Below, in pieces: positions 4,665 through 26,803 of a stretch of 64,000 nt of DNA. The notes beneath the pieces are model-generated. The model saw only the letters and a list, made by a program, of their open reading frames with translations, did no database searches and had not been told where the DNA came from. Where the stretch lies: positions 663,780 to 727,779 of the forward strand of contig NZ_JALGCL010000001.1 in assembly GCF_022808325.1 (NCBI RefSeq). Reading direction: 5' to 3'. The position numbers were made by a program, and so were the translations under genes. Origin of the DNA: Cognatiluteimonas sedimenti (GTDB taxonomy: Bacteria; Pseudomonadota; Gammaproteobacteria; Xanthomonadales; Xanthomonadaceae). Position 1 is the first letter of the stretch. The number at the start of each line of letters is the position of its first letter.

Positions 4665-4715
4665 CGGTGCAAGGCTGAATCGTTACAATATCGGACTTTG
4701 TAGCACGGTTGCAGG

Positions 4716-5878: not shown

Positions 5879-5882
5879 CGCG

Positions 5883-6569: not shown

Positions 6570-6653
6570 TGCAGGTCCGGACGGTCGCGTGATGCTGCAT
6601 GAGACAATGGCCACGTCCCCTTCCCCCGCACCGCCGGGACGCAGGAAAAGCGC

Positions 6654-8031: not shown

Positions 8032-8045
8032 GCGTGGTCGCAGGC

Positions 8046-10534: not shown

Positions 10535-10971
10535 CGCGCTGGCTGCTCGCGCTGCTGCTCGCCATCGCGCCGCTGGCCACGATGGCGCAGGCCGTGGTCG
10601 ATCCCGCCCCGCTGCAGTTCCGCGACCACGCCGAGGAGGTCCGCTTCCACGCCCTGGTCGGCGAACTGCGCTGCGTGATGTGCCAGAACCAGTCGCTGGC
10701 CGATTCCAACGCGCAGATCGCGCACGACCTGCGCCGCGAAGTGCTGCAGCTGATGCGCCAGGGCATGAGCGACGCGCAGGTCAAGCAGTTCCTGGTCGCG
10801 CGTTACGGCGAGTTCGTGCTGTACCAGCCGCGGGTGGAAGCCAAGACCTGGCTGCTGTGGTTCGGGCCGGCGCTGTTGCTGCTGGCCGGCGGTTTCGTGG
10901 TCGCGCGCGTGGTCCGCGGGCACGCCGCGAGCCGTGGCGACCTCCCCGGCAACGACGACCAGGAGTGGTGA
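10531..10971 (+). CDS. ccmH: Cytochrome c maturation thiol-reductase subunit CcmH
   Basis: A 146-residue protein with a signal peptide (cleavage likely after ATMAQA), the redox motif LRCVMCQNQS (Cys48/Cys51) and one C-terminal membrane helix (about residues 105-125). It works with CcmF and CcmI in presenting reduced apocytochrome c. This is the short, single-domain CcmH; the TPR part is the separate ccmI gene that follows. The GTG start overlaps the ccmG stop. Confidence 0.95.
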   Translation: MTRWLLALLLAIAPLATMAQAVVDPAPLQFRDHAEEVRFHALVGELRCVMCQNQSLADSNAQIAHDLRREVLQLMRQGMSDAQVKQFLVARYGEFVLYQPRVEAKTWLLWFGPALLLLAGGFVVARVVRGHAASRGDLPGNDDQEW

Positions 10972-11996: not shown

Positions 11997-12069
11997 TCGC
12001 GCGCCTGTTGCGCACCTGCCGTTCGCGCGCACGGGTTCTGCCGCGATCGACGCCCGGTAAACTGCCGCG

Positions 12070-13221: not shown

Positions 13222-13259
13222 CCGCGGAATCGGCCGCAGCCGCGATTTCCCGGCTGGGC

Positions 13260-13265
13260 TAGAAT
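13260..13265 (+). promoter_or_regulatory. Possible -10 element of the cysteine dioxygenase gene
   Basis: TAGAAT lies 7 bases before the ATG at 13273, in the context ctagaatcg that recurs before other starts in this window (34382, and as tacaat at 45182). No convincing -35 is visible. Such closeness would imply a very short or leaderless transcript. Confidence 0.3.
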
Positions 13266-13272
13266 CGACCCC

Positions 13273-13878
13273 ATGACCGACGACTGCTGCCCCGACATCG
13301 CCTTCCCCGGCCACGACAAGCTGGTGTCCGCGATCGACACCGCGATCGCCGCCGGGGACCAGCATGCGGTCACCGCCGCAGTGCGCAACGCGCTGTGCCG
13401 CTTGATCAAGGACCAGGACGTCACCCTGCCGGCCTGCGTGCACGAGCCGATCGTCGACCATTACGCGCGGCGCGAGCTCTACCGCAGCCCCGTCCACGGC
13501 TACAGCGTGGTCGCGATGACCTGGGGCCCCGGCCAGGGCACCCCGCTGCACGACCATTCCGGCCTCTGGTGCGTGGAAGGCGTGTGGGACGGCGAACTGG
13601 AGATCGTCCAGTACGAACTACTCGAGCATGTGGGCGGGCGTTACCGGTTCCGCGCCGCCGGCGGCATCCACGCCGGCCCCGGCAGCGCCGGCAGCCTGAT
13701 CCCGCCGCACGAGTACCATACGATCCGCAACGCCAGCGCCGACGCCATCGCGATCTCGCTGCACATCTACAAGGCCGAAATGGCGTGCTGCGCCAAGTTC
13801 GTCCCCGAGCGCCCGGGCGCCGACGACGAATGGTTCGTGCGCGAGGATGCGACCCTCAGGACCGACGAGGCCGCCTGA
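13273..13878 (+). CDS. Cysteine dioxygenase-family protein
   Basis: A cupin-fold non-heme iron thiol dioxygenase of 201 residues. The 3-His iron site is visible as His93 and His95 (TPLHDHSG) and His149 (HEYHTIRN). These enzymes oxidise cysteine to cysteine sulfinate, or 3-mercaptopropionate to its sulfinate; the sequence alone does not separate the two. The N-terminus has a CC pair and the C-terminal half an unusual MACCAK. It follows metX by 51 bases on the same strand and may take part in the same sulfur amino acid balance. Its end is 24 bases from the tRNA-Leu gene. Confidence 0.85.
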   Translation: MTDDCCPDIAFPGHDKLVSAIDTAIAAGDQHAVTAAVRNALCRLIKDQDVTLPACVHEPIVDHYARRELYRSPVHGYSVVAMTWGPGQGTPLHDHSGLWCVEGVWDGELEIVQYELLEHVGGRYRFRAAGGIHAGPGSAGSLIPPHEYHTIRNASADAIAISLHIYKAEMACCAKFVPERPGADDEWFVREDATLRTDEAA

Positions 13879-13885
13879 GCCCCGC

Positions 13886-13891
13886 TATACT
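13886..13891 (+). promoter_or_regulatory. -10 box of the tRNA-Leu gene
   Basis: TATACT lies 11 bases upstream of the tRNA 5' end, a typical position for a tRNA promoter. The -35 region would fall inside the end of the cysteine dioxygenase gene and is not clearly consensus. Confidence 0.5.
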
Positions 13892-13902
13892 TCGCACCCC
13901 GC

Positions 13903-13988
13903 GCCGGAGTGGCGGAACGGTAGACGCAGCGGACTCAAAATCCGCCGAGCTAACACTCGTGGGGGTTCGAGTCCCCCCTCCGGTACCA
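13903..13988 (+). tRNA. tRNA-Leu (anticodon CAA), chimeric at the island junction
   Basis: An 86-base class II tRNA with a 7-bp acceptor stem (gccggag / ctccggt), D-loop GG, anticodon stem gcgga/tccgc, and anticodon CAA at 13936-13938. It has a long variable arm (cgag/ctcg stem), T-arm ggggg-ttcgagt-ccccc, and an encoded CCA. The 56 bases from 13933 to the CCA are matched by a diverged copy at 25774-25829. The 3' half here was therefore almost certainly brought in by the integrated island and completes the host 5' half. Confidence 0.95.
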
Positions 13989-13994
13989 ATAAAA

Positions 13995-14026
13995 GCAAGG
14001 GCTTAGCCGCGAGGCTAGGCCCTTGC
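13995..14026 (+). terminator. Hairpin after tRNA-Leu, supplied by the island
   Basis: A 14-bp stem (gcaagggcttagcc / ggctaggcccttgc, one G-T pair) with a gcga tetraloop begins six bases after the tRNA CCA. No strong T-run follows. It lies inside the island and replaces the host terminator now stranded at 25841. Confidence 0.65.
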
Positions 14027-14045
14027 CCTTTGGGGGCCACGCAAC

Positions 14046-14055
14046 TTTGTAAGTG
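14046..14055 (+). other. Possible integrase arm-type site, left end
   Basis: TTTGTAAGTG here recurs as TTTGTAAGT at 25609-25617 and TTTGTAAGTG at 25620-25629, just upstream of the integrase gene at the other end of the island. Short direct repeats at both ends are what tyrosine integrases bind as arm sites. The rest of 13989-14200 shows no gene. Confidence 0.4.
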
Positions 14056-14227
14056 TTTTGTACATGCTTGGACATACGGTCGCTCGCAGGAGCGCATAGA
14101 GAGGGCGCCATTTCGTGACTCACGTGCGAGCATGTGACGATCATCGGATGCCGTCTCACATTGAGCGACCTAGATCAGCAACTCTGAGCCAAGAGCTCGG
14201 TTGTTCAAGAACGTGGAGCGAGTGGTG

Positions 14228-15418
14228 TTGGCTAAAACAAAAATAACGCAACGACCCTATCCGCAGTACATCAAGTACATGGGCTCGAAGTCGAAGATCA
14301 TGGACTTCGTGCTGTCTGGCATCAACGATGTCTATGAGGATGGCGGGATTTGCGACCTTTTCGGCGGGAGTGCTTCTCTTGCTGGTGCAGTCGGCGACCA
14401 AGTCGCCATCCACTCCAACGACATTCAGGCCTATTCGGCAGTGCTGGCTGGCGCCTACTTGACCGCGTGGAGGAAGAACTCCACCCCCGAAGCGGCAGCG
14501 ATTATCGAGCAAGCCAAAGCCATCGTAAGCAGGAACCGGAAGGCGATTAGATGCCTACACGACTATGCACACCCCGTTTCTATCAAGCGCTTCAATGCTA
14601 TTGAGCGGGAACAACAATCGCTTATTGAGCGAAACTTCCGGCGACCATGGCATCTTTTTCTTAAGTATTACTCAGGCACTTGGTGGTCTGCAGAGCAGGC
14701 GTTATGGATTGATGCCATTAGGGAGGTTGCGGATCAGTACAAGGCCGACCCCACTTATGACGTAATCCTCTCTTCGCTGATGTTCGCGATGGCTTATTCC
14801 AGCCAGGGAACAGGGCACTACGCTCAATATCGAGATGCAAATACTGCATCTTCGATGAAAGACATATCAATCTATCGAAAGAAGTCAGTAGCGCAGTTGT
14901 TCGTCAAGAAGTATTCCGGCGCACTAGCCACTTTGGCGACGCAGCCCTCTGACTTTCAGCACAAAGTCACCTCCTTAGACTATCGAGAATGTCTTAAGGA
15001 GTTCTCGGGTGGGACAGTCTATGCAGACCCGCCATACGCATTCGTGCACTACAGCCGCTTCTATCATGCGCTCGAAACGCTTGTTCTTTATGACTACCCT
15101 GAAATTCAAGAGAAGAACGGCGTAGTGGTCAAAGGACGGTATCGAGAGAATCGACATCAGTCGCCATTCTGCATTCGTTCTTTGGTGGCGGGTGCATTTG
15201 AAGACCTGTTCCGTGGTGTGAGCGAAAGCGGTTCAAACCTCGTTCTGAGCTATAGCAATACAGGCATGATTTCCATTGACGATCTTGGCGAGATCGCATC
15301 ACGAGAATTTGCAGGCAAATCCATCGAGCTGGTGTTTACCGACTACAAGCACATGACCTTGGGGCGCCAATTCGACCGACACCGAGAGGTCGAGGAATGC
15401 CTGATGCTGGTGAAATAG
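14228..15418 (+). CDS. D12-class N6-adenine DNA methyltransferase
   Basis: The protein transfers methyl from S-adenosylmethionine to adenine N6 in DNA. It shows the Dam/D12 order of motifs: IKYMGSKSKI (motif X), CDLFGGSASLAGAVG (motif I, SAM binding) and YADPPYAF (motif IV catalytic DPPY). Length is about 396 residues. I take the TTG at 14228 because a GGAG at 14215-14218 lies 9 bases before it and the product begins MAKTKITQ. GTG at 14222 or 14225 and TTG at 14201 are alternatives. The following putative nuclease gene suggests a type II restriction-modification pair. Codon use is A+T-richer than in flanking host genes. Confidence 0.85.
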   Translation: MAKTKITQRPYPQYIKYMGSKSKIMDFVLSGINDVYEDGGICDLFGGSASLAGAVGDQVAIHSNDIQAYSAVLAGAYLTAWRKNSTPEAAAIIEQAKAIVSRNRKAIRCLHDYAHPVSIKRFNAIEREQQSLIERNFRRPWHLFLKYYSGTWWSAEQALWIDAIREVADQYKADPTYDVILSSLMFAMAYSSQGTGHYAQYRDANTASSMKDISIYRKKSVAQLFVKKYSGALATLATQPSDFQHKVTSLDYRECLKEFSGGTVYADPPYAFVHYSRFYHALETLVLYDYPEIQEKNGVVVKGRYRENRHQSPFCIRSLVAGAFEDLFRGVSESGSNLVLSYSNTGMISIDDLGEIASREFAGKSIELVFTDYKHMTLGRQFDRHREVEECLMLVK

Positions 15419-15462
15419 CGAGGCATTAAAGCCCCTACTTCACGCGACGATGCCTGATTGAT

Positions 15463-15494
15463 ACGATCACAGCCCCATAGGGGCTGGAGATCGT
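15463..15494 (+). promoter_or_regulatory. Hairpin around the nuclease ribosome-binding site
   Basis: acgatc pairs with gatcgt around an inner perfect stem agcccc-ata-ggggct. The likely ribosome site (ggag at 15486-15489) lies in the 3' bulge of this structure, and the ATG at 15499 follows directly. The fold could hold down translation of the nuclease relative to the methyltransferase, or be a dyad bound by a protein. Confidence 0.45.
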
Positions 15495-15498
15495 CAGG

Positions 15499-16626
15499 AT
15501 GACTGACCTGTCAAGATTGAAGGTGTCGCTCACCAAGCATAACGCGCATAAGATTGCGCCGCTTCTGAAGAAGTACAAGGCGAGTAGCGTTCTCTCTAAA
15601 TTGAGCGAAGTCCATGCAGAGACCGTTCAGGCCCACAAAAATCTATCGGTGCAAAACGGCACTCAAGTTCCGAAGGTCTGGGCTAAGGTCAGAAAGCTTG
15701 GCGGAAACGCAGTCGATGCGCTCGTACTAGTTGGCATCATCTTTAGCCACCATGAACTAATTTTGGCGATGTCGAATGCCAGCTCCCGCTCAAGGTACTC
15801 GGGGAGAATCGAACGCAATGTCCAGCTCACAGGAAAAGCCTATACGAACTTCGTACAGATAGTGGACCAACTGGGCTATGCGACGAAGCGAGATCTTAAG
15901 GGCGTCACTTTTAACTTGCGATCTATGTTCAGCATGCCCGGCCTCGGACCGCTTGTAGGCGAGCTTCTTAAGTACAAGCTAATAGCGGCCAACTGGAATC
16001 AGGCAGGAACAGTTGCAGATGAGGCAATCGCGCTCAGCTTTCAGAATGTTTTTGGGGTCACCGACAAGGAATTTCGAGATTGGATCACCGTCGGAGCGGA
16101 GCCTCTTGATGCCGGCACTCAGCTCATTTCTAAAGACGAAGAGTTTTTCGATTCTCCAGACGAAGGAGTTACGGGAACATTCGCATTCAAGCCCGGTCAC
16201 GAACAGCGTTCTGTAGATCCAGTCTCCAAGAAGGCATCTGCAAAGACAAAAGCGAACCAGCTTCACAACGACATACAGAACCGTCTTTACGAGTACCTGA
16301 AAGCGAAGATTGGAGCTCCAAACGTAGGGACAGAGTTAGACACAGGGAGTGGGACAGCAATTGACCTCGCGACTAAGCAACCTGGAAAACTTACGTTCTA
16401 CGAGATCAAGACCAGTAGCTCCGTCCGAAGCTGCATCCGTCAAGCTATTCCGCAACTACTTGAGTACGCTTATTGGCCAGCCGAAGAGCGAGCTGACGAG
16501 TTGGTGATTGTTTCTCATTTGCCGATCACGAAAGCCGCAGACAAGTATTTGGCTCACCTCCGCGATAAGTTCGAGCTTCCTATTACCTATCGGCAGTTCT
16601 CGCTTACGGACAACCGGCTGATCTGA
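15499..16626 (+). CDS. Putative PD-(D/E)XK restriction endonuclease
   Basis: A 375-residue protein without a family I can name. The C-terminal third has a convincing PD-(D/E)XK core: Glu279 (GTELDTG), Asp289 (TAIDLAT), then Glu302-Ile-Lys304 (FYEIKTSSSV). A helix with Gln315/Gln319 in RQAIPQLLEYAYW follows, like the QxxxQ helix of many such nucleases. The N-terminal 230 residues are helical and may recognise DNA. It starts 80 bases after the methyltransferase stop on the same strand, the usual arrangement of a type II restriction pair. Function is inferred from motif and context, not from a homologue. Confidence 0.7.
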   Translation: MTDLSRLKVSLTKHNAHKIAPLLKKYKASSVLSKLSEVHAETVQAHKNLSVQNGTQVPKVWAKVRKLGGNAVDALVLVGIIFSHHELILAMSNASSRSRYSGRIERNVQLTGKAYTNFVQIVDQLGYATKRDLKGVTFNLRSMFSMPGLGPLVGELLKYKLIAANWNQAGTVADEAIALSFQNVFGVTDKEFRDWITVGAEPLDAGTQLISKDEEFFDSPDEGVTGTFAFKPGHEQRSVDPVSKKASAKTKANQLHNDIQNRLYEYLKAKIGAPNVGTELDTGSGTAIDLATKQPGKLTFYEIKTSSSVRSCIRQAIPQLLEYAYWPAEERADELVIVSHLPITKAADKYLAHLRDKFELPITYRQFSLTDNRLI

Positions 16627-16784
16627 ACGCGCCAATCGATTTCAGAATTTTCCTACGCCTCGGTTGGCGAACGCCCGATTCCAGCCCCGTGATTGCGCCA
16701 GCAATCTATACCCGTCGGCAACGCGCGCACCTCTGAGGTCATCCAATCGCGCGGGCCCTGCAGGGATGCAGGGCTGCCGGCAGA

Positions 16785-16816
16785 TATCGAGGACAAAGAT
16801 CACCTATCGCGGACAA
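16785..16816. repeat. Tandem TATCGMGGACAA motifs, possible IS end remnant
   Basis: tatcgaggacaa (16785-16796) and tatcgcggacaa (16805-16816) are spaced exactly 20 bases apart. Read on the minus strand they give TGTCC-containing repeats that resemble the multiple terminal repeats of IS21-family elements. No transposase is present. The last codons of the HEPN-like gene lie within them. Confidence 0.35.
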
Positions 16817-17784
16817 GTCGCGAGCATCAAGCCTTGCCCAACGAGTAATCCGTGAACAAACGCCGACGTCATGATGGCGGCGCCTAAGAGAGCAGAATAG
16901 AGACTTATCGGGAATAGGACCTTCACCCAAATCCTGGTGTATGGGTCGTGCGGGTTGCCTATCTTCGTCGAGAACTCTTTGAATGCCGCTTCAAAGTTGC
17001 TTGGGATTTTCGCTGCTTCGCTGAACTGAAACGCCGCTGTGTTCATCCGGCGCATATTGAACGCATGCCAGAACACGTAGATCGAGAGCGACACGACGAT
17101 TGTGATAGCAACCGCAAACTCCGTCGTTTGGCACATGGTGTCTCGCATGAAAGACCAGACGGCCAGCAGCCCAACGTATCCAGCAGATATCAGCAAGTTG
17201 GTCATTCTCTCGCCCCAATCAAATATCTTCTCCATCAATGATTCAGGGGATGGTGCTGCAAGGGTAGCGGGAGTTGAGCCAGCCTCAGTCGCCACCTCGG
17301 AATCCGCGGGAGGGCGGCTGCGAGCAGCTGGAGGTAGAGGAATATGAAACTTATCCAATAAGACGAACGTAACGTGTGCGGTGGCGCTCGTCAGAGCCTG
17401 GGTTCGATCAAGGCCTACATACATGGCCTCATGGACCATCATGTCGCGATATTCTAGTGCGTACCTGAAGACGGCCCACTTCTCAGAACCGAATGCTTCC
17501 TCCGGTGCTTCGCCTCTGATAGACAGCATCGCCTCAATCATGGAATCGACGCGAGCATTGCGGAGTCCTTCAAACGTACTTCGACGTTCTTCGGGAGCCG
17601 TGTGGTGCACTAGCCATGAACGGACGACTGCCTCAATAGCTGCCAGAGCATTGATGAGCTCCATTTGATTTGGAGCAACATGCAGCAACCGCTCTACGCC
17701 GAGATTGAACCTGTTCTCTGGCAACCATTCGATGCAAACTTTTGAGAGTTCGGCGAGATGCCAGTCGTAATTGTCGGTAGTCAT
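16804..17784 (-). CDS. HEPN-like domain protein with C-terminal membrane helices
   Basis: A 326-residue protein without an assigned family. Residues about 40-150 are all-helical and contain RDMMVH (Arg113 to His118), an Rx4H motif in a predicted helix. This is the catalytic signature of HEPN ribonucleases used in toxin and abortive-infection systems. A Pro/Ala-rich linker (about 150-180) leads to a membrane part with helices near 196-213, 222-241 and 288-318. Soluble HEPN plus membrane anchor is a plausible defence effector design. The gene ends convergently with the restriction pair and lies downstream of terL. The last residues (ATCPR) are encoded in the TATCGMGGACAA repeat, so the C-terminus may have been altered by an insertion. 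Domain call is by eye. Confidence 0.6.
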   Translation of the reverse strand: MTTDNYDWHLAELSKVCIEWLPENRFNLGVERLLHVAPNQMELINALAAIEAVVRSWLVHHTAPEERRSTFEGLRNARVDSMIEAMLSIRGEAPEEAFGSEKWAVFRYALEYRDMMVHEAMYVGLDRTQALTSATAHVTFVLLDKFHIPLPPAARSRPPADSEVATEAGSTPATLAAPSPESLMEKIFDWGERMTNLLISAGYVGLLAVWSFMRDTMCQTTEFAVAITIVVSLSIYVFWHAFNMRRMNTAAFQFSEAAKIPSNFEAAFKEFSTKIGNPHDPYTRIWVKVLFPISLYSALLGAAIMTSAFVHGLLVGQGLMLATCPR

Positions 17785-17884
17785 ATACCTTCCCCAACTG
17801 CAATCTTTGCATCGTGGGATTCACTGCATTTGCAGTCAAGGACTAGTAGAGCCACTAGCCTCACGCTTCGACGGTGCCTCTGAC

Positions 17885-19270
17885 CTACGTCGGCCGCTCG
17901 ATCCTGACATCCGCAACGGTCGCCCAGGCCACCCGCTGGGTGCCGTAGCGCATAGCATCTAGGGCGTGGTCGGCCCCTGAGCTGTCCACGTCCTCGGGCC
18001 TCTTGAGGTCCCGACCGGCATAGGGCGCGGTCAGCCAGAAGTAGCGGCAGGTTCGCGAGACGTACAGGCCGGGGCGGTCCAGCTTCCCAGCGTCCGCTAG
18101 CATCCGGCGCATCCGCTGCCAGCCCTGTACCCGGTCGCCCTTCTGCGCGGGTACAAAGTGCACCCCGGCCCGCTGGAACTCGTCAGCGATGGAGCCGACC
18201 GAATGCCCGCTCCGAGCGAAGCAGGCGTCATCGGCGACACCCTCGGGGTCGATCTTCCAGCGCTCGCACATTTCCTTGATGGCGTCGGACAGCACTGGCA
18301 CGGTCCAACCGATTCCTTCGTTGAGCCGGTCGTCGCTCCGGTTCGTGGCCAGTTCGTCTACGGCCACAATTGATCCGCGTGGATAGAACTTGCTGTCCGG
18401 ACCTTCCCCTCCGGGACTCTCGGCCAGCACGTAGGTCACCGAGGGGGCCGCCGACCCGAAGTCATGGGCCAGCCAGGTCCACCAGCCGCGCGGAATCTCT
18501 GGCCACAGGTTGGTCGCCACCCGGTCTTCATCCAAACAGTCGGCGAAGTACGCTCCGCGCGCAACGCTCCAATCGCCATCCACCCAAGCCCGCAGTAGCT
18601 CAGGATCATCCGCGCAAGCCGCGCCGAGCTGTTCTCGGTACATCTCAACGTCGAGAAACTGATTCGCCGCGAACGTGCTGGGCGCGTTGACGCATAGTCG
18701 CTTCGACTTCTCGTCGGTGAATGGCGTCCATGGCGCAGCTTTCGTGAAGACGAAGCGTCGGGCGATCCACATGTGACCAACGCCGCCCGGGTTCGCCGCG
18801 TAGACGGTCCGGATCGGCAAGTCTTTGGGGCCACGCAAGTTGGAGCGCAGCATGTCGAGCAGCGAGGCGTCTTGATATTGGCCACATTCGTCGGCCATCA
18901 GCAGCGTGAAGCTGCGCCCTTGGTACTTGGCGTAATCGGCTTGCGACTCAAGCTGCCCGAGTTCAAGGATCCCACCGCTCGGTAGTTTCCACACATGCTC
19001 GGCGCCGTTGTAGCGGGCTGCTGGCCCGTAGACCTTGGCGAACAGGTCCTGCGTGGTCAGCACGAAATCTTCTAGGCCCTTGTAGGTGCGCCGGATGTAC
19101 AGCACGCGAGCGCGCTTGCCGTACTGCTCGATATGCCGCAACGCGAGCAGCGCCATTAGGTAAGACTTGCCGCCACCGCGACCGCCCGTCAGGGCGAGAT
19201 CGATGGACTCCGGCACCAGCAGCGCGCGCTCTTGGAACGCATTGAGTTCGATGCCGTCACTCATGTTCAA
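17885..19270 (-). CDS. Phage terminase large subunit (TerL)
   Basis: TerL is the ATP-driven motor and nuclease that cuts and packages phage DNA. The 461-residue protein shows an N-terminal ATPase with Walker A GGRGGGKS (Lys35), Walker B LLMADE (Asp127/Glu128) and the coupling region YAANPGG. A C-terminal RNase H-like nuclease follows, with acidic residues in AHDFGS, ADDACF and DHALDAMRYG. It appears intact. It overlaps the TerS-like gene by 14 bases. It is encoded without portal or capsid genes, which is unusual for a prophage and matters for how the island is read. Confidence 0.88.
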   Translation of the reverse strand: MNMSDGIELNAFQERALLVPESIDLALTGGRGGGKSYLMALLALRHIEQYGKRARVLYIRRTYKGLEDFVLTTQDLFAKVYGPAARYNGAEHVWKLPSGGILELGQLESQADYAKYQGRSFTLLMADECGQYQDASLLDMLRSNLRGPKDLPIRTVYAANPGGVGHMWIARRFVFTKAAPWTPFTDEKSKRLCVNAPSTFAANQFLDVEMYREQLGAACADDPELLRAWVDGDWSVARGAYFADCLDEDRVATNLWPEIPRGWWTWLAHDFGSAAPSVTYVLAESPGGEGPDSKFYPRGSIVAVDELATNRSDDRLNEGIGWTVPVLSDAIKEMCERWKIDPEGVADDACFARSGHSVGSIADEFQRAGVHFVPAQKGDRVQGWQRMRRMLADAGKLDRPGLYVSRTCRYFWLTAPYAGRDLKRPEDVDSSGADHALDAMRYGTQRVAWATVADVRIERPT

Positions 19271-19829
19271 TCACCCGAGGCATACGTGGCAACGGCACCA
19301 CTTCTAGCCTGCCGTTGCGCTCCACGTAGGTTTTGAGGTCCGGCGCTGCCGCAGGGATATGGAAGGTGATGCTGACCCTGTTGCGGTTGTCTTCGGGTTC
19401 CTGTTCTCTGTACCCATGGCGACTTCTTAAGAGAAACTGCGCCGCCCCCAGGTCGCGCTTGTAGATCGCCGCCTCGTACAGAGTGCGATGCAATAGTTCG
19501 CGCTCAAGCTCCTTGCCTTCATCAAAGGCTTTGCGGAGTGATGCATTTGCATCCAGCCACCGCTTGAAGTCATCGGCAGACACCGCGAATAGCGTGTGCA
19601 TGGCTTTCAGGGAACCACCCTTGCTGGCCGCCACCCGTACCCGCTCAGGGGCATCGCTAGGGACGCTGTCTGCCGGCGGTGCGAGTGCTTGGGGCGGCGG
19701 GGGCGCGGATGAGCTTACAACAGCGGGCACGAGCGCAGCCGGGGCCGCAATGGGCCCGGGTGCCTCATCCACCCGCCACGGTGCACGCGGAGGCTGCTTG
19801 GGGGATGGCGGTGGCGACTTGCTGGACAC
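19257..19829 (-). CDS. Probable terminase small subunit (TerS-like)
   Basis: A 190-residue protein placed directly before terL with a 14-base overlap, the classic terS position. Residues 1-60 are Pro/Ala-rich and probably disordered. The middle (about 75-140) is helical (DFKRWLDANASLRKAFDEGK ... HRTLYEAAIYKRDLGAAQFL), like phage proteins that recognise the packaging site. The end has a short beta-rich tail. The helical part resembles small terminase-type sequences, but I cannot name a family. The call rests mainly on position. Confidence 0.6.
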   Translation of the reverse strand: MSSKSPPPSPKQPPRAPWRVDEAPGPIAAPAALVPAVVSSSAPPPPQALAPPADSVPSDAPERVRVAASKGGSLKAMHTLFAVSADDFKRWLDANASLRKAFDEGKELERELLHRTLYEAAIYKRDLGAAQFLLRSRHGYREQEPEDNRNRVSITFHIPAAAPDLKTYVERNGRLEVVPLPRMPRVIEHE

Positions 19830-19841
19830 AGATGCGATGCC

Positions 19842-20657
19842 TCAAGCCTTCCGTAGGTCCGACAATGCTTGCGCGGCGTCGAAGTCCACGACCGAGTTCA
19901 TGAGCTTCGGGATTCCGGCCTCCAACTTGTCCACTACCGCGAAGGCCTTGGTCAGGCCGGGCTCCAGTTGCAACAACTTGGGATCACGCAGGCCAAGTAG
20001 TGTCGTGCGCTTCTGCATCTGCTGTCCCACCTGGGAGCCGGTCAGGAACGCCGGTGCGCCGCCGATCGCGTAGTCGATAATGAGTGCTTCATCTCCACGC
20101 GCACGGGCAATGAGCGCTTCACGATCTTCGGTTTTCATCGCGCGCAACACGTCGCGTGCCTGCTCGACCATACCCGCGAGATGCGGCGGTGGAGTCATGG
20201 CAGCCCGCAGACGTTCCTCCACGTCCCCGCGGGTCCGATGCAGACTGTTGCGCAGGCCGTTGATCGTGTCGGTGTGCTGGGCCAACGTTTCATTGCCGAT
20301 CCTCGCCACTTGGGCGATTCCCTGTGGCCCGCTGAGAAGCTCGTTATCAAACGTGCGGGCCATCGCTTCGAACGTGCTGACCACCGACTTGTGGATGTTC
20401 TCGCGGGCGGTGCGCAGACCGTTGAACTCGGGCGCATCCGGCAGCGGGTCATGCACGCCGAGGGTTTCGATAGCCACAATGGCTGCTTCTTCGGCTCGGG
20501 CCTTGGCGCGCTTGCGCGGTTCCTGTGCGGCTTTCTGTTGGGCTTCCAGCGCATGTTGGGCGGCATTGTTCATACGCACACGTTCTGCGCGCCGTTCTTC
20601 GGCCTGTTGGATGGCTTGCTTTGAGCTGTAATCGGTGGGTGTGCTGGTAGTGGTCAT
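19842..20657 (-). CDS. Island protein of unknown function, helical
   Basis: A 271-residue protein I do not recognise. The first 60 residues are Lys/Arg/Glu/Ala-rich and likely coiled coil (QQAEERRAERVRMNNAAQHA). The rest is predicted mostly helical, with no catalytic motif and no signal peptide or membrane span. It stands 12 bases upstream of the TerS-like gene on the same strand, so it probably belongs to the packaging transcription unit. A structural or scaffold-like role is possible but unsupported. Confidence 0.65.
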   Translation of the reverse strand: MTTTSTPTDYSSKQAIQQAEERRAERVRMNNAAQHALEAQQKAAQEPRKRAKARAEEAAIVAIETLGVHDPLPDAPEFNGLRTARENIHKSVVSTFEAMARTFDNELLSGPQGIAQVARIGNETLAQHTDTINGLRNSLHRTRGDVEERLRAAMTPPPHLAGMVEQARDVLRAMKTEDREALIARARGDEALIIDYAIGGAPAFLTGSQVGQQMQKRTTLLGLRDPKLLQLEPGLTKAFAVVDKLEAGIPKLMNSVVDFDAAQALSDLRKA

Positions 20658-20669
20658 AGCGGCGTTTCC

Positions 20670-20966
20670 CTAGTGGTCAGTGGGATCGATGAAGGTTTGT
20701 TCGTGCATGCGGTACAGCCCTTCCAGCCTTCGCATTGCACGAGCGAAGGTGTCTGCGTCTCTGTCACTAGGGTGTGTGACCAAATACATGCGCACGGCTT
20801 GAACGCAGTCACCGACTTCGGCCACGCATGCGAGCAGCCGGTCGGTATTCCGGTCCGTTGCCGGGTTAGTCTTGGATCGCTGGAACCGGAAATCCAGCGC
20901 TGCATTGCTGGCTGCAACGTGCAGCTCATCGATGGACGACAGCAGCCGGTTGATTGGTCGAGACAT
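20670..20966 (-). CDS. Small island protein of unknown function
   Basis: A 98-residue helical protein (MSRPINRLLSSIDELHVAAS at the N-terminus, MRRLEGLYRMHEQTF near the C-terminus) with no motif I recognise. It precedes the 271-residue gene by 12 bases and would be the first gene of the left-hand transcription unit, starting just after the non-coding iteron-like stretch. A longer overlapping reading in another frame (to 21109) is Cys/Trp-rich and looks random, so I prefer this frame. Confidence 0.55.
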   Translation of the reverse strand: MSRPINRLLSSIDELHVAASNAALDFRFQRSKTNPATDRNTDRLLACVAEVGDCVQAVRMYLVTHPSDRDADTFARAMRRLEGLYRMHEQTFIDPTDH

Positions 20967-21652
20967 CGTGCAATCCGGTTACGAATGGGTGCAGTTTTGC
21001 CTCCGTCCCGCGCTGCTATTCCCCCGGGGAAGGCGCCACACCCAGCTTTCCGGCCAAGCCATGTACAAAATCGCGCGCGGAACTGCCACACGCACGGAAG
21101 CAAGCGCATTCCTGCAGTTCACGGCTGATAGCAGATGAGCTGCGCTTAGGGGCTGTAAGTTTGCTGCAGACGCAGCAACGGCCTCCATTCCCTATTCCCG
21201 CTTTCATTCCCTATTTCATTCCCAGTTTTGGAAGCTAAAAACAAGCGATATCTGCTTAATCATGGAATAAATGGAATGGATTGGACTTTGGTAATTAAAG
21301 GTTACGACACGGTTACGACAGGCAGCCCTTTCCCTGCATTTGCATTCTTCATTCCCTTCATTCCTTGATATGCAGGAAACCGCTTAAAAATAGCTGCCAA
21401 AAGCGGGAATAAAAGCGGGAATGGAGCCATTCCCTGCATTCCCTGTCGGTTTTGCGAATCCCATCCACTTCATCTATCAATGCGGAATCACAGCAGGAGC
21501 GCGTAGGAGCGCGATCAACCCCGACCCGCTGCCACGGTAGCGACCCCGGGGACGGACAACGCGGAAACTCGCGGGGAGGAAGCCCTAGCAGCAGGACAGC
21601 CGCTGGTACTGCTCTTACCGGGGTGAAAGCGCATCTGTGTCCATTGCGGGGA
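20967..21652. other. Island non-coding stretch with ATTCCC iterons, candidate replication origin
   Basis: Some 690 bases without a credible gene. ATTCCC occurs at 21187, 21194, 21206, 21218, 21351, 21439 and 21448, and its complement GGGAAT at 21415 and 21427. Two adjacent copies of ggttacgaca lie at 21300-21309 and 21311-21320. The area around 21220-21300 is A+T-rich. It lies directly downstream of the DUF3987 (replication-like) gene and upstream of the packaging genes. Iterons plus an A+T-rich stretch next to a rep-type gene suggest an origin; operators or a packaging site are alternatives. Confidence 0.5.
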
Positions 21653-23215
21653 CTAGTCAGACCAGAACTTGATCGGTGCTGAGTTAGACACAGGCCTAGG
21701 TGCCAGCGTAGGCCGCGGGGCGGGTTTAGCCGCAGGGAGCCCATATGCCTCTGGGTCGCCCAGGACATACATTTCGCTGCGGAGGCCGAAGCGCTGCAGC
21801 GCCGCATGCGAGTCCAACTTGAACAGTGCACCGGTCTGGCACATCGCCAGTAGTATCGAATTCAAAGCCATGCCAACGCCGCGGCGGTCTTGATTGAAGG
21901 CGATGCACTGCTTTGCGCGCCGGCGGAGGTATGACAGGGGGACGACGCCTTCATAGAGAATCTTCTGAGGGACTCCGTACTTGGTTTGGCGCTGTAGCGG
22001 CTTCATCCGGAAGTACTCGAGTACGTACTTTTTGAGTTCCGCCTCCTGTCGCGATTCACCGGCCCCCACCATTCCTTCGCGGAACTGGTTTGCGAGGGTG
22101 CCCACGCAATGCTCCACAAACTTATATGCCCAATCGACGTGTTCGCGTTCAATGACGGGGATGGAGTGCTGCCCGGGCATGCAACCGACTGCGACAAGCG
22201 CGGCGATGCGCCTGATGTTGAGTCCTGCTCGATTCCAAAGGGCGCGATCAAATACATCGCGTGACTTGTCATTGAAGTCGGCGTCGAACTTAGCTTGAAT
22301 GGCTTCGAGCGCCTTTGCGCCGTCCTCGCTGGTCACAATCTGGCGGGGCTCCATGGGCATCGGATCGAGTCCGCCTAGCTGCATGACTGTGGCCACAAGG
22401 TCAGCGAATCGATTGACCAGCTGCGCTGGCGGCGGAAAATAGGCCGTCGGGTTTGTTGGTGGCCGGTCACCCGTAACCTCGATGACTAGCGTGCGCGGCA
22501 GCAAGCCGTCCTCAATGTCGCGGAACGAGAGGTTGTCAAATACGTGACCGGGGGTCGATTCGCCGAGAATGCTTATTGCCGGCGCTTTGACGATTTGGGT
22601 GTCTTTCTCCCGATCTGCGTAGGCGGTCGCGCGGAAGGTGTTTCCCTTGCCTGATTTTGCATATAGATCTAGCAGCGAGAGTCGCAACTCGCTTGTAGAG
22701 GCCGGTGCGCGCGGATCGTTCAACTCCTTTAGGCGCAGGCCAAACTCGCTCTGGATCGACAGAAAGCAAGGGTTGGATGTCAGCGCTCGGTTCAACGCTT
22801 GTCCTGATGCGAACTTGCGTGGTCCCACGAAGTCGTCCGCGAACGAGCTGCGCTCGCGCACAGCGTCAAGTACTCGTTCTATGCCGCGAGCCATGTCCTC
22901 CTTGCCACGCCCGCTTTCCGCGAGCAGCAAGAGGTAAAGATTGAGCCCCGTACCTTCGAAATTGAAGGCGCGGCCCGCGACACCCGCCATGAGCCCCAGC
23001 GCGCCAAGCATCGCACCCTCGAGCATCGGATAGCGCGCACTGGCGTAAAAATAGCTTGCGAGTTCGCCCAGCAGTCCAGGCGGCTGCGGAATACTAAAGC
23101 TGGACCGGATTGCCTCGTGCGCGTCGCCGGGAGCGGCGCTAAGCTCAACGGACAAAGGTTGGGTTTCCTCAGCGCCCTCGGTTGCCGCCGGGGGCGTTTC
23201 TTTTGGGGCCCTCAT
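21653..23215 (-). CDS. DUF3987 (YfjI-like) protein, probable replication ATPase
   Basis: A 520-residue protein matching DUF3987/YfjI, a family common in satellites and integrative elements and related to primase-helicase C-terminal parts. Features are GLMAGVAGRAFNFEG, a degenerate P-loop AESGRGKE (residues 99-106, with Ala and Glu where Gly and Ser/Thr are usual), LRLSLLDLYAKSGKG, and an acidic ISILGESTPG strand. The C-terminus is Pro/Ala-rich. It overlaps the AlpA-like gene by ATGA, so the two are co-translated, with the candidate origin just downstream. A replication role is inference from family and location. Confidence 0.75.
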   Translation of the reverse strand: MRAPKETPPAATEGAEETQPLSVELSAAPGDAHEAIRSSFSIPQPPGLLGELASYFYASARYPMLEGAMLGALGLMAGVAGRAFNFEGTGLNLYLLLLAESGRGKEDMARGIERVLDAVRERSSFADDFVGPRKFASGQALNRALTSNPCFLSIQSEFGLRLKELNDPRAPASTSELRLSLLDLYAKSGKGNTFRATAYADREKDTQIVKAPAISILGESTPGHVFDNLSFRDIEDGLLPRTLVIEVTGDRPPTNPTAYFPPPAQLVNRFADLVATVMQLGGLDPMPMEPRQIVTSEDGAKALEAIQAKFDADFNDKSRDVFDRALWNRAGLNIRRIAALVAVGCMPGQHSIPVIEREHVDWAYKFVEHCVGTLANQFREGMVGAGESRQEAELKKYVLEYFRMKPLQRQTKYGVPQKILYEGVVPLSYLRRRAKQCIAFNQDRRGVGMALNSILLAMCQTGALFKLDSHAALQRFGLRSEMYVLGDPEAYGLPAAKPAPRPTLAPRPVSNSAPIKFWSD

Positions 23216-23427
23216 TGGCTGGCCCCTTGCTGCTCCCTACCCAGCGACTCCAGCCATGCTTGTATGTCGCTCTGGCGATAACGCAGCCTGCCGCCCACCT
23301 TGACGCATTGCGGGCCGTAGCCACGCATCCGCCAGCGCTTGAGCGTGAACGGATGGATGCCCAGTGCGGCGGCGGCAGCGTCTTTGCTGAGGTAATCCCG
23401 GACGAGGTTTGGGGTTTCGTTTTCCAC
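23212..23427 (-). CDS. AlpA-like helix-turn-helix regulator/excisionase
   Basis: A 71-residue protein of the MerR-like HTH_17/AlpA type. It has LSKDAAAAALGIHPFTLKRW (helix-turn-helix) followed by GPQCVKVGGRLRYRQSDIQAWL, the wing and C-terminal helix typical of excisionases. In P4-like and PICI satellites such proteins activate excision or the replication operon. Its stop overlaps the DUF3987 start (ATGA). Confidence 0.85.
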   Translation of the reverse strand: MENETPNLVRDYLSKDAAAAALGIHPFTLKRWRMRGYGPQCVKVGGRLRYRQSDIQAWLESLGREQQGASQ

Positions 23428-23499
23428 AGTGGCGCCCTTCTTGGATGGGGCACCTATTAGCTATCCGTTTGCTCGTAGCTATTCCCTGGGGGAAAGGGG

Positions 23500-24189
23500 T
23501 TAATCCCACTCCGGAGGATACGTAAACTTCTTGTCGCGATCGCGATGCCACTGGTATTGCCTGAACGATACGGAGATGAGGCCTTCGCACAGCTCCTCGT
23601 CAATCTCCAAGATGTTTCGCCCGAAGACTTCGCTCTCGGATGACACGTCGCGACTGTATTTCCATCGGACGAACTGCACAAGTCGCGCCTGTACGTCGCG
23701 GTAGAGTTCAGGGCGAGTCTTGATCGGCAAACCGGGTCGTTGAAAGTCTGTGGTTAACGCGACTTTTAGATCGGCATCGGTCAGTCGATCTTTGTCGAAT
23801 GGGAGATCGCCATTCGCAACGATTGCTCCGATGATTCTCTCGACCTCGACTTTATCCTTGCGGCCATGCTTCGCCATGGCCCTGTGGTTGGCGCCATTGA
23901 AGAACATTAGAGGTTTGACGGGTACTACTGCCCCAGATTTCTTGTCGCCTTTAACCTTCACCGTATTGGCCACATGGTGCGCAACATCCAATGCTCCATC
24001 AATGATGGCGTCCATAACCTCGGGGTCGATCATCTCCCTGCGGTACAGGCGTGGCCACATCAATAGCTCGATGGCCGCGCGGCTATCGCCGTCGCGCGCT
24101 TGTTGCAATAGCTCGCGCTCGGGCTTGACCTCGCGCGCTGCACCGCATGCCGCCCAGTCGCGGTCGTCTTCGCTGTCCGTGCCCATCAT
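23500..24189 (-). CDS. Island protein of unknown function between integrase and AlpA
   Basis: A 229-residue soluble protein I cannot assign. It is rich in charged residues, has the segment MFFNGANHRAMAKHGRKDKV near the middle and ends FTYPPEWD. No membrane span, metal motif or P-loop is visible. It overlaps the integrase stop by ATGA (start ATG 24189, second ATG 24186), so it is translated with the integrase and may belong to the integration/excision control unit. Confidence 0.65.
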   Translation of the reverse strand: MMGTDSEDDRDWAACGAAREVKPERELLQQARDGDSRAAIELLMWPRLYRREMIDPEVMDAIIDGALDVAHHVANTVKVKGDKKSGAVVPVKPLMFFNGANHRAMAKHGRKDKVEVERIIGAIVANGDLPFDKDRLTDADLKVALTTDFQRPGLPIKTRPELYRDVQARLVQFVRWKYSRDVSSESEVFGRNILEIDEELCEGLISVSFRQYQWHRDRDKKFTYPPEWD

Positions 24190-25586
24190 CCAGCCCTCCG
24201 TAGCGGCACAACGTTGGATTTCTCACCCTGTAGCATGCCTTCCAGCCGGCGCCACCACTTCTCCAGCGCTTCCCGCTTCTCGTCCAGATAGTCGTACATG
24301 TTGTAGTGCTGGCCGCCTACACTGGCATCAATATGGTTCAAGACGCGATCACGGTACTCCTTGGGCACCTTAGCGGCTGCCATACCGGTTTCTACGGTGC
24401 GACGAAGATCGTGCGGGGTGAACGGGTCGACGCCTAACAGGACACCCCCAAATCCCGCGCGCTGCAGTTCCTTGCATATCTCTCGCAGCGGGCGGCTAAG
24501 GTTTTCATCTACCAAGTGCGGGCTGCGTGCAGCCGGGAACACATGGTCGCCTTCCACGGTCTCGCGCCGGCGACGCAGCAGGTCCACCGCCACTGGGATG
24601 AGCGGGATTAGATTGGGTCGCTTGTTCTTGGAGCGCGCTGCCGGCAGCAGCCAGGTCGCTGCATCTAAGTCCAGCTCTGCCCACGGAAGGTCGCAAACCT
24701 CGCTCGCCCGTGCCCCTGTAAGCAGCAGCAAGCGCAGGGCATCCCCTTCCCCATGGGCAAACCGCTTGTCGCGCAGGCTCGCAGCAGTACGGCGCTTAAC
24801 AGGTGCACGGCTCCAAATGCTCTCGGGGTCAGTAATACGCCACAGCACGCGCAACTCTTTGGGCGTAGTCAGCGCGCGTGTCCGGGGCTTCGGTTTGCCG
24901 CCGGGAATCTTCATCCGCAGGCACGGGTGGACCTCGACGATTTCCTCGTCCAGTGCATACGAGTACATCTTGCGGACCAACGCGAGCCGATGCCCTGCTT
25001 CTGCCAGTCGCGGTGCAATGCCGTTCTGCGGATCGCCGATTGCCACAGGTTTGATGAGCTGGTGCACATCGGCACGGGTGATTTCCTTGGCCTTACGGTT
25101 GCCCCACGTAGGCTTGATGACAAGCTCGATTCTGCGCTCGTCCTCTTTCCAGCTGCGCTTGTTTGGCTTTGCCCATTCCTTGAGGTAGCGATCGGCCAAT
25201 GTGGCCACAGTGACCTCCTTCGCTGCCTGCTGCTTTGCCGCCTCCCGGGCAGCGCGCGAGTCCTTTTTCTGTTGGGACGGATCGTGGCCGGCAGCGATGC
25301 GTCCGATCAGCTGCTTGGCTTCTTGCCGCGCCCAGTCCAGCGTGCCGACGAACTCACGGGTAGCGGGTCCGCCTAGTCGGTTCGACGGAGGCGGCATCCA
25401 GCGTCCGATGGTGAACCGCTTGTTCTTCCCGTCGAACGTGTAGGCCAGGACGAAGTGGCGGGATCCGCCTTTGGTGATCCGGGCGGTGAGCCCTTTGACC
25501 TCGGTGTCCCAATGCAGCTCGTAGAGGGATCCGCTGGGTACGGGCATGGACTTGATGTAGCTCTCGGTGAGCTTGGCGCGCGGCAT
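24186..25586 (-). CDS. P4-type tyrosine integrase
   Basis: A 466-residue site-specific recombinase. The N-terminal DUF4102 arm-binding domain (about residues 1-95, with KGLTARITKGGSRHFVL) is followed by a core-binding domain and the catalytic domain. Catalytic residues are Arg293 (LTGARASEV), His392-x-x-Arg395 (PHDLRRT), His418 (VLNH) and a Tyr within 428-433 (HYNMYDY). P4-type integrases insert into tRNA genes, and this one lies 188 bases from the right-hand tRNA-Leu fragment. It is full length and should be active. The promoter presumably lies in 25587-25773, among the TTTGTAAGT repeats. Confidence 0.95.
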   Translation of the reverse strand: MPRAKLTESYIKSMPVPSGSLYELHWDTEVKGLTARITKGGSRHFVLAYTFDGKNKRFTIGRWMPPPSNRLGGPATREFVGTLDWARQEAKQLIGRIAAGHDPSQQKKDSRAAREAAKQQAAKEVTVATLADRYLKEWAKPNKRSWKEDERRIELVIKPTWGNRKAKEITRADVHQLIKPVAIGDPQNGIAPRLAEAGHRLALVRKMYSYALDEEIVEVHPCLRMKIPGGKPKPRTRALTTPKELRVLWRITDPESIWSRAPVKRRTAASLRDKRFAHGEGDALRLLLLTGARASEVCDLPWAELDLDAATWLLPAARSKNKRPNLIPLIPVAVDLLRRRRETVEGDHVFPAARSPHLVDENLSRPLREICKELQRAGFGGVLLGVDPFTPHDLRRTVETGMAAAKVPKEYRDRVLNHIDASVGGQHYNMYDYLDEKREALEKWWRRLEGMLQGEKSNVVPLRRAG

Positions 25587-25608
25587 GGGACACCCCTGTG
25601 GTCGATGT

Positions 25609-25629
25609 TTTGTAAGTCGTTTGTAAGTG
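25609..25629 (+). other. Paired TTTGTAAGT repeats upstream of the integrase
   Basis: TTTGTAAGT at 25609-25617 and TTTGTAAGTG at 25620-25629, spaced 11 bases apart (about one helical turn). The motif is also at 14046 at the far end of the island. They are probable arm-type integrase sites or an operator of the int promoter. Confidence 0.45.
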
Positions 25630-25773
25630 CGGGACTGCTACGGGAAGGCTCCCTCCCCGCACCCGCAGCGTATCCACGGTGCACCAAAAATGCACGTAGA
25701 ATCAAAGACTTACGTCAACATCATGCCGCGAAACCGCTTGCCTTTCAATGGGTTACCGGACCCCAATTCGCCC

Positions 25774-25829
25774 ACTCAAAATCCGCCGCCCTTAAAAGCG
25801 TGAGGGTTCGAGTCCCTCCTCCGGTACCA
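25774..25829 (+). repeat. attR: stranded 3' half of the original tRNA-Leu
   Basis: These 56 bases run from the anticodon loop to the encoded CCA. They have their own paired variable arm (cgc/gcg) and T-stem (gaggg/ccctc), both different from, yet as well paired as, those in the intact gene. There is no 5' half. This is best read as the host's original 3' end, displaced 11.8 kb by the island. Confidence 0.9.
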
Positions 25830-25840
25830 GGTCGGAAAGA

Positions 25841-25866
25841 AGCCCGCGAGCGATCGCGGGCTTTTT
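25841..25866 (+). terminator. Rho-independent terminator, originally of tRNA-Leu
   Basis: A 9-bp stem agcccgcga/tcgcgggct with a gcga loop followed by TTTTT, 11 bases after the displaced tRNA end. It is the normal distance for a tRNA terminator and supports this side being the ancestral 3' flank. Confidence 0.8.
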
Positions 25867-25966
25867 CATGCCCGGGAGCGCCCGTGGCCACGACGGCGCC
25901 GCCCATTCAAGCGCGCTTTAGCCATCCGCGGCGATCATCCCTGCGCCCCGCCCCCCGGATCCGGCC

Positions 25967-26803
25967 TTGCCTCGACTCCCTGCCCTGGCCTGCACCTTCC
26001 TGCTCGCAGCCTGCGCCACGCTGGCCTGCCGCGCCGACGCGGCCGCCACGGCCACGGGCGACGCCTGGGGCGTGCGCGTTCTGGGCAGCGGCGCCCAGCG
26101 CAACATTGAAAGCCTCAGCGAGATCAATGCCGGCAAGCCCGCCCGCGCGCAGCCGCCGGCGACGCGCGTCGTGGCCAGGCGCGCACTCGGCGACGCCAGC
26201 GTGCAGTTGCTGGCCGACGCACCCAGCGCGCGCGTGCTGCAGGCGCCCGACGCCGCCTTCGGCCCGGAACTGGACAAGGCAGTGGAATGGCTGCAGAAGC
26301 TGCGACCTCGCGGGCAGCCGCCAGCGCGCATCGTGCTGACGCTCGTGGAGGACAGCTACCACCTGCGCACCCGCCGCAGTCATCCCGGCGCCGATGCCCT
26401 GGTCGTCGACCTGGTGATGGCATTGCCGGCAAGCGGCGCCGTGGCGCCATCGACCGCGGTCGGCAAGGCCCTGGCGGTGGCGCTGCACGAGGCCAGCCAC
26501 GCCTACGCGGCCCTGCTGCCACCGGGCAAGGCGCCCAGCCGCCGCGATGACGAATACCGGGCCTCGCTGGTCGAATCCTGTTACCTGGTCGACACCTTGC
26601 GCGCCAGCGACACGCTGCAGCTGGCGCCACGGACGGCGGCCGATGCCGGCGAGTACTTCGTGACCGCACAGAGCCGCGACGCGGGGCGCGACGTGGTCGC
26701 CGAACTGGTCCGCGCCGCCGGCGGCGGGCATGTGCGCGGCAACGACAACGTCGCCATGCTCGGCCTGGACCTGGCCTGCGCAGTGCGGCTGGCACAACGC
26801 TGA
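25967..26803 (+). CDS. Secreted HExxH protein of unknown function
   Basis: A 278-residue protein starting with TTG, with a signal peptide (ALACTFLLAACATLACRADA; the cysteines could allow a lipoprotein). It contains H174EASH178 in a hydrophobic helix context (AVALHEASHAYA), the zinc motif of metalloproteases. Glu196 (DDEYRA) or Glu203 (VESCYL) downstream could be the third ligand of a gluzincin. I do not recognise a named family. It is the first host gene beyond the island and has no clear operon partner. Protease activity is a motif-based inference. Confidence 0.6.
   Translation: MPRLPALACTFLLAACATLACRADAAATATGDAWGVRVLGSGAQRNIESLSEINAGKPARAQPPATRVVARRALGDASVQLLADAPSARVLQAPDAAFGPELDKAVEWLQKLRPRGQPPARIVLTLVEDSYHLRTRRSHPGADALVVDLVMALPASGAVAPSTAVGKALAVALHEASHAYAALLPPGKAPSRRDDEYRASLVESCYLVDTLRASDTLQLAPRTAADAGEYFVTAQSRDAGRDVVAELVRAAGGGHVRGNDNVAMLGLDLACAVRLAQR

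Follow-up and report, generated by a model that had tools for sequence, protein, structure and literature searches.

A terminase gene pair with no portal, capsid, or tail genes beside it could be the remnant of a prophage or the packaging motor of a phage satellite. The question is raised by an 11.8 kb island in the genome of Cognatiluteimonas sedimenti (Xanthomonadaceae; assembly GCF_022808325.1), found in a 64,000-nt stretch of contig NZ_JALGCL010000001.1 (positions 663,780 to 727,779) which is referred to here as the window, and within which all coordinates are given unless another locus is named. The island (13,989–25,829) is integrated at tRNA-Leu(CAA) and encodes small and large terminase subunits (TerS and TerL) and a 271-aa protein of a family here called u271. 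Its gene content suggests, with a probability of roughly two in three, that it is a phage satellite which would package itself with its own TerS and TerL into the shell of a helper phage. It is probably a satellite rather than a relic, and the sequence evidence makes it fairly probable that its own motor would work on helper portals.

The island and its terminase genes

Read from its right end, the island has the order Int, a 229-aa protein, an AlpA-like protein, a DUF3987 helicase, a region of short repeats, a 98-aa open reading frame (ORF), u271, TerS, and TerL. A 326-aa protein follows TerL on the same strand; on the opposite strand, in the left arm, are a D12 methyltransferase gene and a 375-aa ORF. 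TerL (461 aa; 17885–19270, minus strand) matches PF03237 (E 3.6e-9) and phrog_2 (E 1.2e-25), has Walker A (GGRGGGKS) and Walker B (LLMADE) motifs, and retains acidic nuclease residues at positions that do not vary across the five aligned sequences. Its best-ranked phage match, 33% identical, comes from a phage record of 41 kb that includes an integrase. TerS (190 aa; 19257–19829, minus strand), whose gene overlaps terL by 14 nt, has a weak match to phrog_309 (E 5.6e-4) and is 46% identical over 107 aa to the product of the gene preceding TerL in a related locus, L009.

No portal, capsid, tail, or lysis family was recognized below E 0.1 for ten island proteins compared with Pfam and PHROGs. A tail-fibre PHROG match of the 271-aa protein (E 0.32) was taken as noise. 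The P4 genes sid and psu are not named among the Pfam and PHROG matches of the island proteins, in a comparison that did not include the P4 proteins themselves. Every core frame in the window is open, and with no structural fragments recognized the island does not have the appearance of a decayed prophage. In the host genome, which is 99.97% complete, a single TerL of this family was found, and searches for PF04860, PF05136, and phrog_145 portals found none. A PF04860 portal was found on another contig in one of seven other genomes searched (G051), and a phrog_145 portal in four of 12 genomes searched, compared to none of 14 control genomes.

The original prediction for this stretch was of a satellite-like island with the order integrase, AlpA, DUF3987, origin, TerS, and TerL, and without portal, capsid, tail, or lysis genes. 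Profiles, attachment sites, and repeats bear out the order, and the searches above agree with the absences. Portal or capsid homology in its unassigned proteins, which it had named as evidence that would speak against it, was not found: TerS accounts for the 190-aa protein, and sequence, profile, and fold were all negative for the 271-aa one.

Related terminase loci

TerL relatives in viral contigs are represented here by 80 of 117 stretches (L008 among them). In a near sample of 149 genomes, six have relatives, the host's own included, and two of these have fragments only. At E 1e-60, TerL was found in eight of 395 genomes of the host's family and three of 369 genomes in a class sample, again with its own included; the other two in the class sample are just 35–37% identical. 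A short-pattern scan of genome contigs with TerL found none, a result of little weight, as sequence search did find relatives.

Thirty-four loci were compared in terms of gene content: the window, L008, L009, L018–L046, L051, and L058, chosen by TerL similarity (~47% identity or more) rather than by clade. This leaves out L047 and L048 (41–43% identity, portal-bearing), weaker loci, and L060, which has u271 and a distant TerL. A portal profile built from related full phages, with the family present in seven other TerL loci (L047, L048, L050, L061–L063, and L065), had no match in any of the 34 at thresholds up to E 10, while a TerS match was found in 33. Portal-less TerS–TerL pairs also occur in elements bounded by attachment (att) sites and in two that close on themselves: L046, with a self-overlap of 123 nt, closes at 7,743 bp, and L051, with self-overlaps of 17 and 102 nt at one offset, closes at 8,517 bp. 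Each of these has an integrase, a replication gene, u271, TerS, TerL, and a few small ORFs, and they therefore represent a minimal form close to the gene set of the window. For a further 58 proteins, taken from the window and ten sister elements, the best 25 of 27 matched Pfam families include none for a portal, capsid, or tail, and the sole scaffold match was to the scaffold-like gene of L028. These 58 are part of the ORFs called (114 in 14 loci), with proteins of L097, L098, and the window added and some short or antisense ORFs omitted; the PHROG scan covers the best 25 of 57 matched families, so that weak matches may be hidden.

Head genes are nonetheless present in part of this set. A Gp13-like major capsid protein (MCP) is encoded in 13 of the 34 loci, which means that head genes are not absent from the group overall. 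The L009 protein (331 aa) is 38–41% identical to its 20 best-ranked tailed-phage matches over 97–98% of its length, and the family points to siphophages such as PaMx25. Eleven of the 13 loci also have a scaffold-like gene (family c8), although the strength of its resemblance to head scaffolding varies: the L028 copy matches phrog_206 at E 1e-10, that of L009 only weakly (1e-3), and that of L115, which is also capsid-bearing but not one of the 34, at 6e-6, while the copy in L044 has no scaffold match in Pfam. Homologues of u271 occur in at least 13 loci, and none has both MCP and u271 (P 2e-4 for this exclusion over all 34). L039 was counted as having neither, despite a u271 homologue (E 3.6e-14), as were L018 and six short contigs with in-frame TAG codons.

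The distribution of these genes was compared with a TerL tree of 81 rows (L060 included), for which the program warns of long branches. L020, with u271, is sister to the capsid-bearing L031 (support 100/99), and L046, also with u271, to the capsid-bearing L043 and L044 (100/100). The u271 label changes 10 times on the tree, compared with 10.5 for shuffled labels, and 225 of 500 shuffles gave as few. Judging from these arrangements, sister loci seem to swap different shell-related genes around one motor. Such natural differences, with a capsid–scaffold pair in some loci and u271 in others, offer a means of finding the function of u271.

Another gene family, c7, was considered as a capsid-position gene and rejected; it matches a DNA invertase family, and for this reason the elements with c7 and c11 were kept apart from the comparison of MCP and u271. 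They make up a second satellite type (L010, L011, L052–L057, and L117–L120), with a TerL ~36% identical, a primase, c7, TerS, and c11, a 250-aa protein without assignment, and likewise have no match to the portal profile.

The TerL genes of eight viral contigs (L021, L022, L023, L026, L029, L030, L032, and L058; GC 0.60–0.62) have in-frame TAG codons at shared positions, one of which is a glutamine in relatives. There is no further stop in the aligned part, save a TGA at the very end of the L022 stretch, and a tail protein in L030 is continuous only if TAG is read through. No tRNA was found on seven of these contigs, and only a tRNA-Val on L021. They may use a TAG-recoded code.

u271 and the islands that carry it

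A u271 profile of 14 members found matches in 12 of the 395 family genomes and, at E 1e-6 beyond the family, in three of 339 class-sample genomes, the host's own included in both counts. In three of the islands (L097, L098, and L128), u271 is accompanied by another TerS candidate and by a different terminase, whose ATPase and nuclease are encoded by separate genes (L097 11016–12655, L098 7214–8658, L128 7213–8660) that overlap by 10 nt in all three, so u271 is not tied to one terminase family. L097 is a second satellite-like island in the window's own genome (G000:C2:327501-347500), with tRNA-Phe, 45-nt repeats, and a length of 11.5 kb. A terminase ATPase subunit is also annotated in a Meiothermus phage record.

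Four larger u271 islands (L123, L126, L127, and L129; repeats of 30–59 nt, 15.5–15.7 kb, with that of L126 at 2951–18726 of its locus) have a terminase, a portal, and a head-morphogenesis gene in addition. Tape-measure genes are present in L123, L126, and L127, a head-tail adaptor in L126, and a neck-type gene in L123; in L129, a 286-aa protein has a “virion structural” match, and a 339-aa ORF could not be assigned to a family. The capsid profile matched none of the ORFs in these four, 15 of whose proteins were also scanned for other families (PHROG/Pfam), and they may have a capsid of another family. The genome in which L123 lies (G598) has a second phrog_145 portal elsewhere. In an integrase tree, the islands with portals fall together in a single clade (100/100) that does not include the window. 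The window integrase pairs with that of L098 (98/89), and the two are joined next by that of L122 (100/98), an island where no terminase was detected. The presence of a terminase therefore changes between close integrase relatives, and the series of u271 islands may reflect gain or loss of head modules.

The u271 protein of the window (271 aa; 19842–20657, minus strand) is predicted to be all-alpha (pLDDT 82.7, pTM 0.64; 89.4 and 0.74 for the L051 homologue), unlike the alpha-beta HK97 capsid fold. A relationship to the L009 capsid was rejected by BLASTP, and one to portals or capsids by HMM-HMM comparison with ten other families, in which the best was scaffold-like, with a probability of 3.2%, and not significant. 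No match was found for three u271 members by tblastn against phages, the best E in a PDB sequence profile search was 0.17, and Foldseek found none at E 0.001 among viral and PDB models. Its position is often that of the scaffold or capsid genes in sister loci, and it accompanies different terminases as well as occurring where no terminase was detected. It is a core protein of the group and, by its position and its exclusion of MCP, a candidate shell-hijack factor; tentatively, at somewhat less than even odds, it could take over the helper shell in a scaffold-like, size-setting, or portal-recruiting capacity. Such a job would be comparable to those of Sid, CpmB, Ccm, and TcaP. That u271 itself has a head-related job may be the case.

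Comparison with known satellites

In the parts of the satellite papers considered here, nearly the whole particle is stolen or a whole head is brought. Packaging by the TerL of a helper, with at most a terS of their own, is a defining feature of phage-inducible chromosomal islands (PICIs) as far as these accounts go. Gram-negative PICIs (EcCICFT073, PmCI172) resemble the window island in having int, an alpA-type regulator, a replication module with an adjacent origin, and cargo, and some have a terS or capsid homologue, according to the available text of PMC6092414. The island has the same combination, with an origin recognized by its repeats only, but it encodes a full-length TerL instead of depending on that of a helper, and the name terL does not occur in the text of that paper as available.

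Capsid-forming PICIs (cf-PICIs) share with the island an integrated state and a TerS and TerL of their own, but carry capsid, protease, portal, connector, and HNH genes, none of which was recognized here; in the portions of PMC10690885 available they rely on the helper only for tails. The capsid-bearing sisters of the window also differ from cf-PICIs, which have a portal, in having no match to the portal profile. The Streptomyces satellites Mulch and Flayer likewise have TerS and TerL, but with portal, capsid, scaffold, and adapter present and key replication genes lacking (PMC10690885, same portions).

Phage-inducible chromosomal minimalist islands (PICMIs) are similar in small size and in a core of int, alpA, and a DUF3987-type primase. 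Their prototype lies beside fis and, in the available part of PMC10803314, has no terS, sid, or ppi homologue, whereas the window island is at tRNA-Leu and has TerS–TerL; it is thus not a fis-linked core without packaging genes. The Pseudomonas satellite AH14b, reported in capsids of its helper AH14a, also has int, AlpA, primase, and helicase (PMC4936722, in part). No terminase is annotated in it and no u271, TerS, or TerL profile matches it at E 0.01, while it has a tail assembly protein I; its integrase groups with those of L020 and L031. A review, as far as its available text goes, lists tycheposons and virion-encapsidated integrative mobile elements (VEIMEs) as proposed marine satellite families (PMC11389934). 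Portal-less TerS–TerL satellites are not described in the titles or abstract beginnings among the matches listed, a weak negative, with subscription papers mostly outside the search. Because of their differing gene content and terminase status, the island is placed outside the cf-PICI, Gram-negative PICI, PICMI, and AH14b groups; as judged from its genes, it is a new variant of phage satellite.

Proposed cycle and alternative explanations

Attachment sites and gene families suggest that Int and the AlpA-like protein would excise the island from tRNA-Leu(CAA), and that the DUF3987 helicase would replicate it from the region of ATTCCC repeats. TerS would then select island DNA, and TerL, whose catalytic residues are present, would pump and cut it. 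Portal, shell, and tail would be supplied by an infecting helper phage, since no portal or capsid gene was recognized in the island and none of three portal families in the genome. u271 would act on assembly of the helper shell, as it is common to sister elements and present at the place of a capsid gene in others. The recurrence of a motor without a portal raises the question of whether a satellite TerL can dock on a foreign portal.

A more ambitious picture, and one given rather less than an even chance, is of a large modular group of satellites that contribute the rare, decision-making virion components and steal the bulk ones, with u271 as an exchangeable, new shell-hijack protein. What they bring might be u271 or a capsid–scaffold pair, usually with a terminase, and in longer forms a portal, adaptor, neck, and tape measure. 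It is conceivable, again at under even odds, that u271 makes the helper capsid protein assemble around the motor or portal of the satellite.

A number of observations weigh against a satellite with its own motor and a shell-directed u271. The absence of portals in the 34 loci comes from one portal profile, other portal families having been covered by partial Pfam and PHROG scans, and the portal phages L047 and L048, on long branches, fall inside the smallest starred 30-row set of the TerL tree that holds the window. The capsid label is clustered on that tree (7 changes vs. a shuffled mean of 11.1; 3 of 500 as low), so module swapping is not free. Among loci with longer flanks, P for the exclusion of MCP and u271 is 0.02–0.05, and the loci are not independent; as P weakens in this way and the loci are related, the exclusion is supporting but not decisive. 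The role proposed for u271 rests on position and exclusion, and its weak fold matches are to alpha-pore-forming toxins (E ≥0.05, TM <0.41), leaving the fold open. Five islands (L121, L122, L124, L125, and L130; AlpA in four) have an integrase and u271 with no terminase match, nor was a terminase found by Pfam in ten of their other ORFs. The u271 elements L008, L039, L040, and L045 encode a tape measure, and L030 a tail assembly protein; as tail or neck genes accompany u271 in many elements, its role could lie on the tail side instead. Decay does happen, as the two genomes with TerL fragments only demonstrate.

The earlier proposal of a portal-less TerS–TerL pair as a satellite architecture agrees with its recurrence in the 34 loci, and related elements, which it proposed to look for in the host's family, exist there by TerL as well as by u271. 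Its picture of a satellite redirecting helper capsids with its own motor stands as far as this recurrence goes, but has to accommodate the capsid-bearing loci and, in the wider TerL set, portal phages. Freedom from recognized head genes holds for the island, and for portals in its relatives, though not for capsids. Stepwise loss of head genes in larger relatives, which it had listed as telling against it, is not seen in the window itself, although the larger u271 islands do have portal, head-morphogenesis, and tape-measure genes.

Of the alternatives, the one that survives best, although unlikely, is a temperate phage that lost its portal, capsid, tail, and lysis genes, leaving TerS–TerL as a mere remnant. 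The two fragmentary TerL genes, one with an in-frame TAG and the other in pieces, are both at loci containing tRNA-Leu(CAA), and the existence of larger u271 islands that have a portal and a head-morphogenesis gene also fits this view. Against this, the core frames of the window are all open, the capsid profile matched none of those larger islands, and the compact architecture recurs with varied integrases and replication genes, in self-closing as well as att-bounded elements. The default reading of an isolated terminase pair should not be a prophage relic.

Rather improbable, and less likely than decay, is a device for interference, in which TerS–TerL and u271 poison helper packaging instead of packaging the island, which would be transmitted in some other way, for instance by headful packaging by the helper. 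The probable defence cargo would suit such a device, as would the five u271 islands with no terminase detected and the spread of PICMIs, for which no packaging-redirection gene is identified (PMC10803314, in the part available), but retention of the TerL ATPase and nuclease residues, together with a TerS match in nearly all of the 34 loci, is more than a poison needs. Least likely of all is descent from capsid-forming satellites, with u271 or another protein as the island's own shell protein: the capsids of 13 loci, mostly with a scaffold-like gene, and the frequent presence of u271 in the same place point that way, but u271 is predicted to be all-alpha and could not be linked by profile to the capsid family, and neither type matched the portal profile, while cf-PICIs have a portal as well as a protease and connectors (PMC10690885, in part). 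A satellite packaging itself with its own motor remains the preferred reading.

Integration site, replication genes, and cargo

The tRNA-Leu(CAA) gene identified by ARAGORN at the left end (13903–13988, plus strand) is intact, and its 3′ part forms attL (13933–13988). A repeat search located attR, a partial tRNA-Leu copy (25774–25829, plus strand) identical to attL at 48 of 56 positions, with 15 nt as the longest exact run. GC inside the island is 0.51–0.64 (1-kb bins, 14,001 to 26,000), vs. ~0.70 around it. No convincing unoccupied tRNA-Leu site was found by means of the right-flank DNA in nine genomes of the genus, including its own; the two stretches retrieved have neither tRNA nor flank homologues.

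The tyrosine integrase (466 aa; 24186–25586, minus strand) matches PF00589 (E 5.7e-16), PF13356 (E 2.7e-11), and phrog_1 (E 2.7e-50), and is 53% identical to that of L098, an island that likewise adjoins tRNA-Leu(CAA). The 229-aa protein beside it (23500–24189, minus strand) has no useful match in Pfam or PHROGs. Next is the AlpA-like HTH_17 regulator or excisionase (71 aa; 23212–23427, minus strand; PF12728, E 1.9e-10), which is 38–44% identical to the products of genes at the equal position in L098 and L097; the HTH_17 family was accepted as AlpA by the PICMI authors (PMC10803314, available part). The DUF3987 helicase-type replication protein (520 aa; 21653–23215, minus strand; PF13148, E 3e-9) aligns with positions 342–771 of 788 of phrog_3022, a “DNA primase” family (E 4e-109). 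Adjoining it is a candidate iteron-like replication origin of ~540 bp (21110–21652), with nine ATTCCC/GGGAAT repeats where 500 first-order Markov resamplings give a mean of 0.44 and a maximum of 3. They include two runs of three with starts 12 nt apart, the second mixed in strand. The 98-aa ORF that follows (20670–20966, minus strand; alternative 151-aa frame at 20654–21109) has no useful match.

The region from 14.2 to 17.8 kb, on which the original prediction is silent, is, on sequence features, probably anti-phage cargo, consisting of a probable restriction-modification pair and a HEPN-membrane candidate. The 326-aa protein (16804–17784, minus strand) has hydrophobic stretches near residues 220–243 and 285–316 and two R-x4-H motifs, which are presumed here to indicate a HEPN-like domain; no profile match supports the HEPN reading. 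The 375-aa protein (15499–16626, plus strand) has no curated-level family match, only a weak one to PADLOC PDC-S11 (E 0.004). Its C-terminal D...ExK pattern, which is taken here as a sign of a restriction endonuclease, and its position make it a possible restriction partner of the neighboring D12-class adenine DNA methyltransferase (405 aa; 14201–15418, plus strand). The latter matches PF02086 (E 1.3e-12), phrog_27806 (E 6e-26), and a PADLOC type II methyltransferase (E 1.5e-30), and contains DPPY. Two other u271 islands, L125 and L130, have methyltransferases that differ from that of the window.

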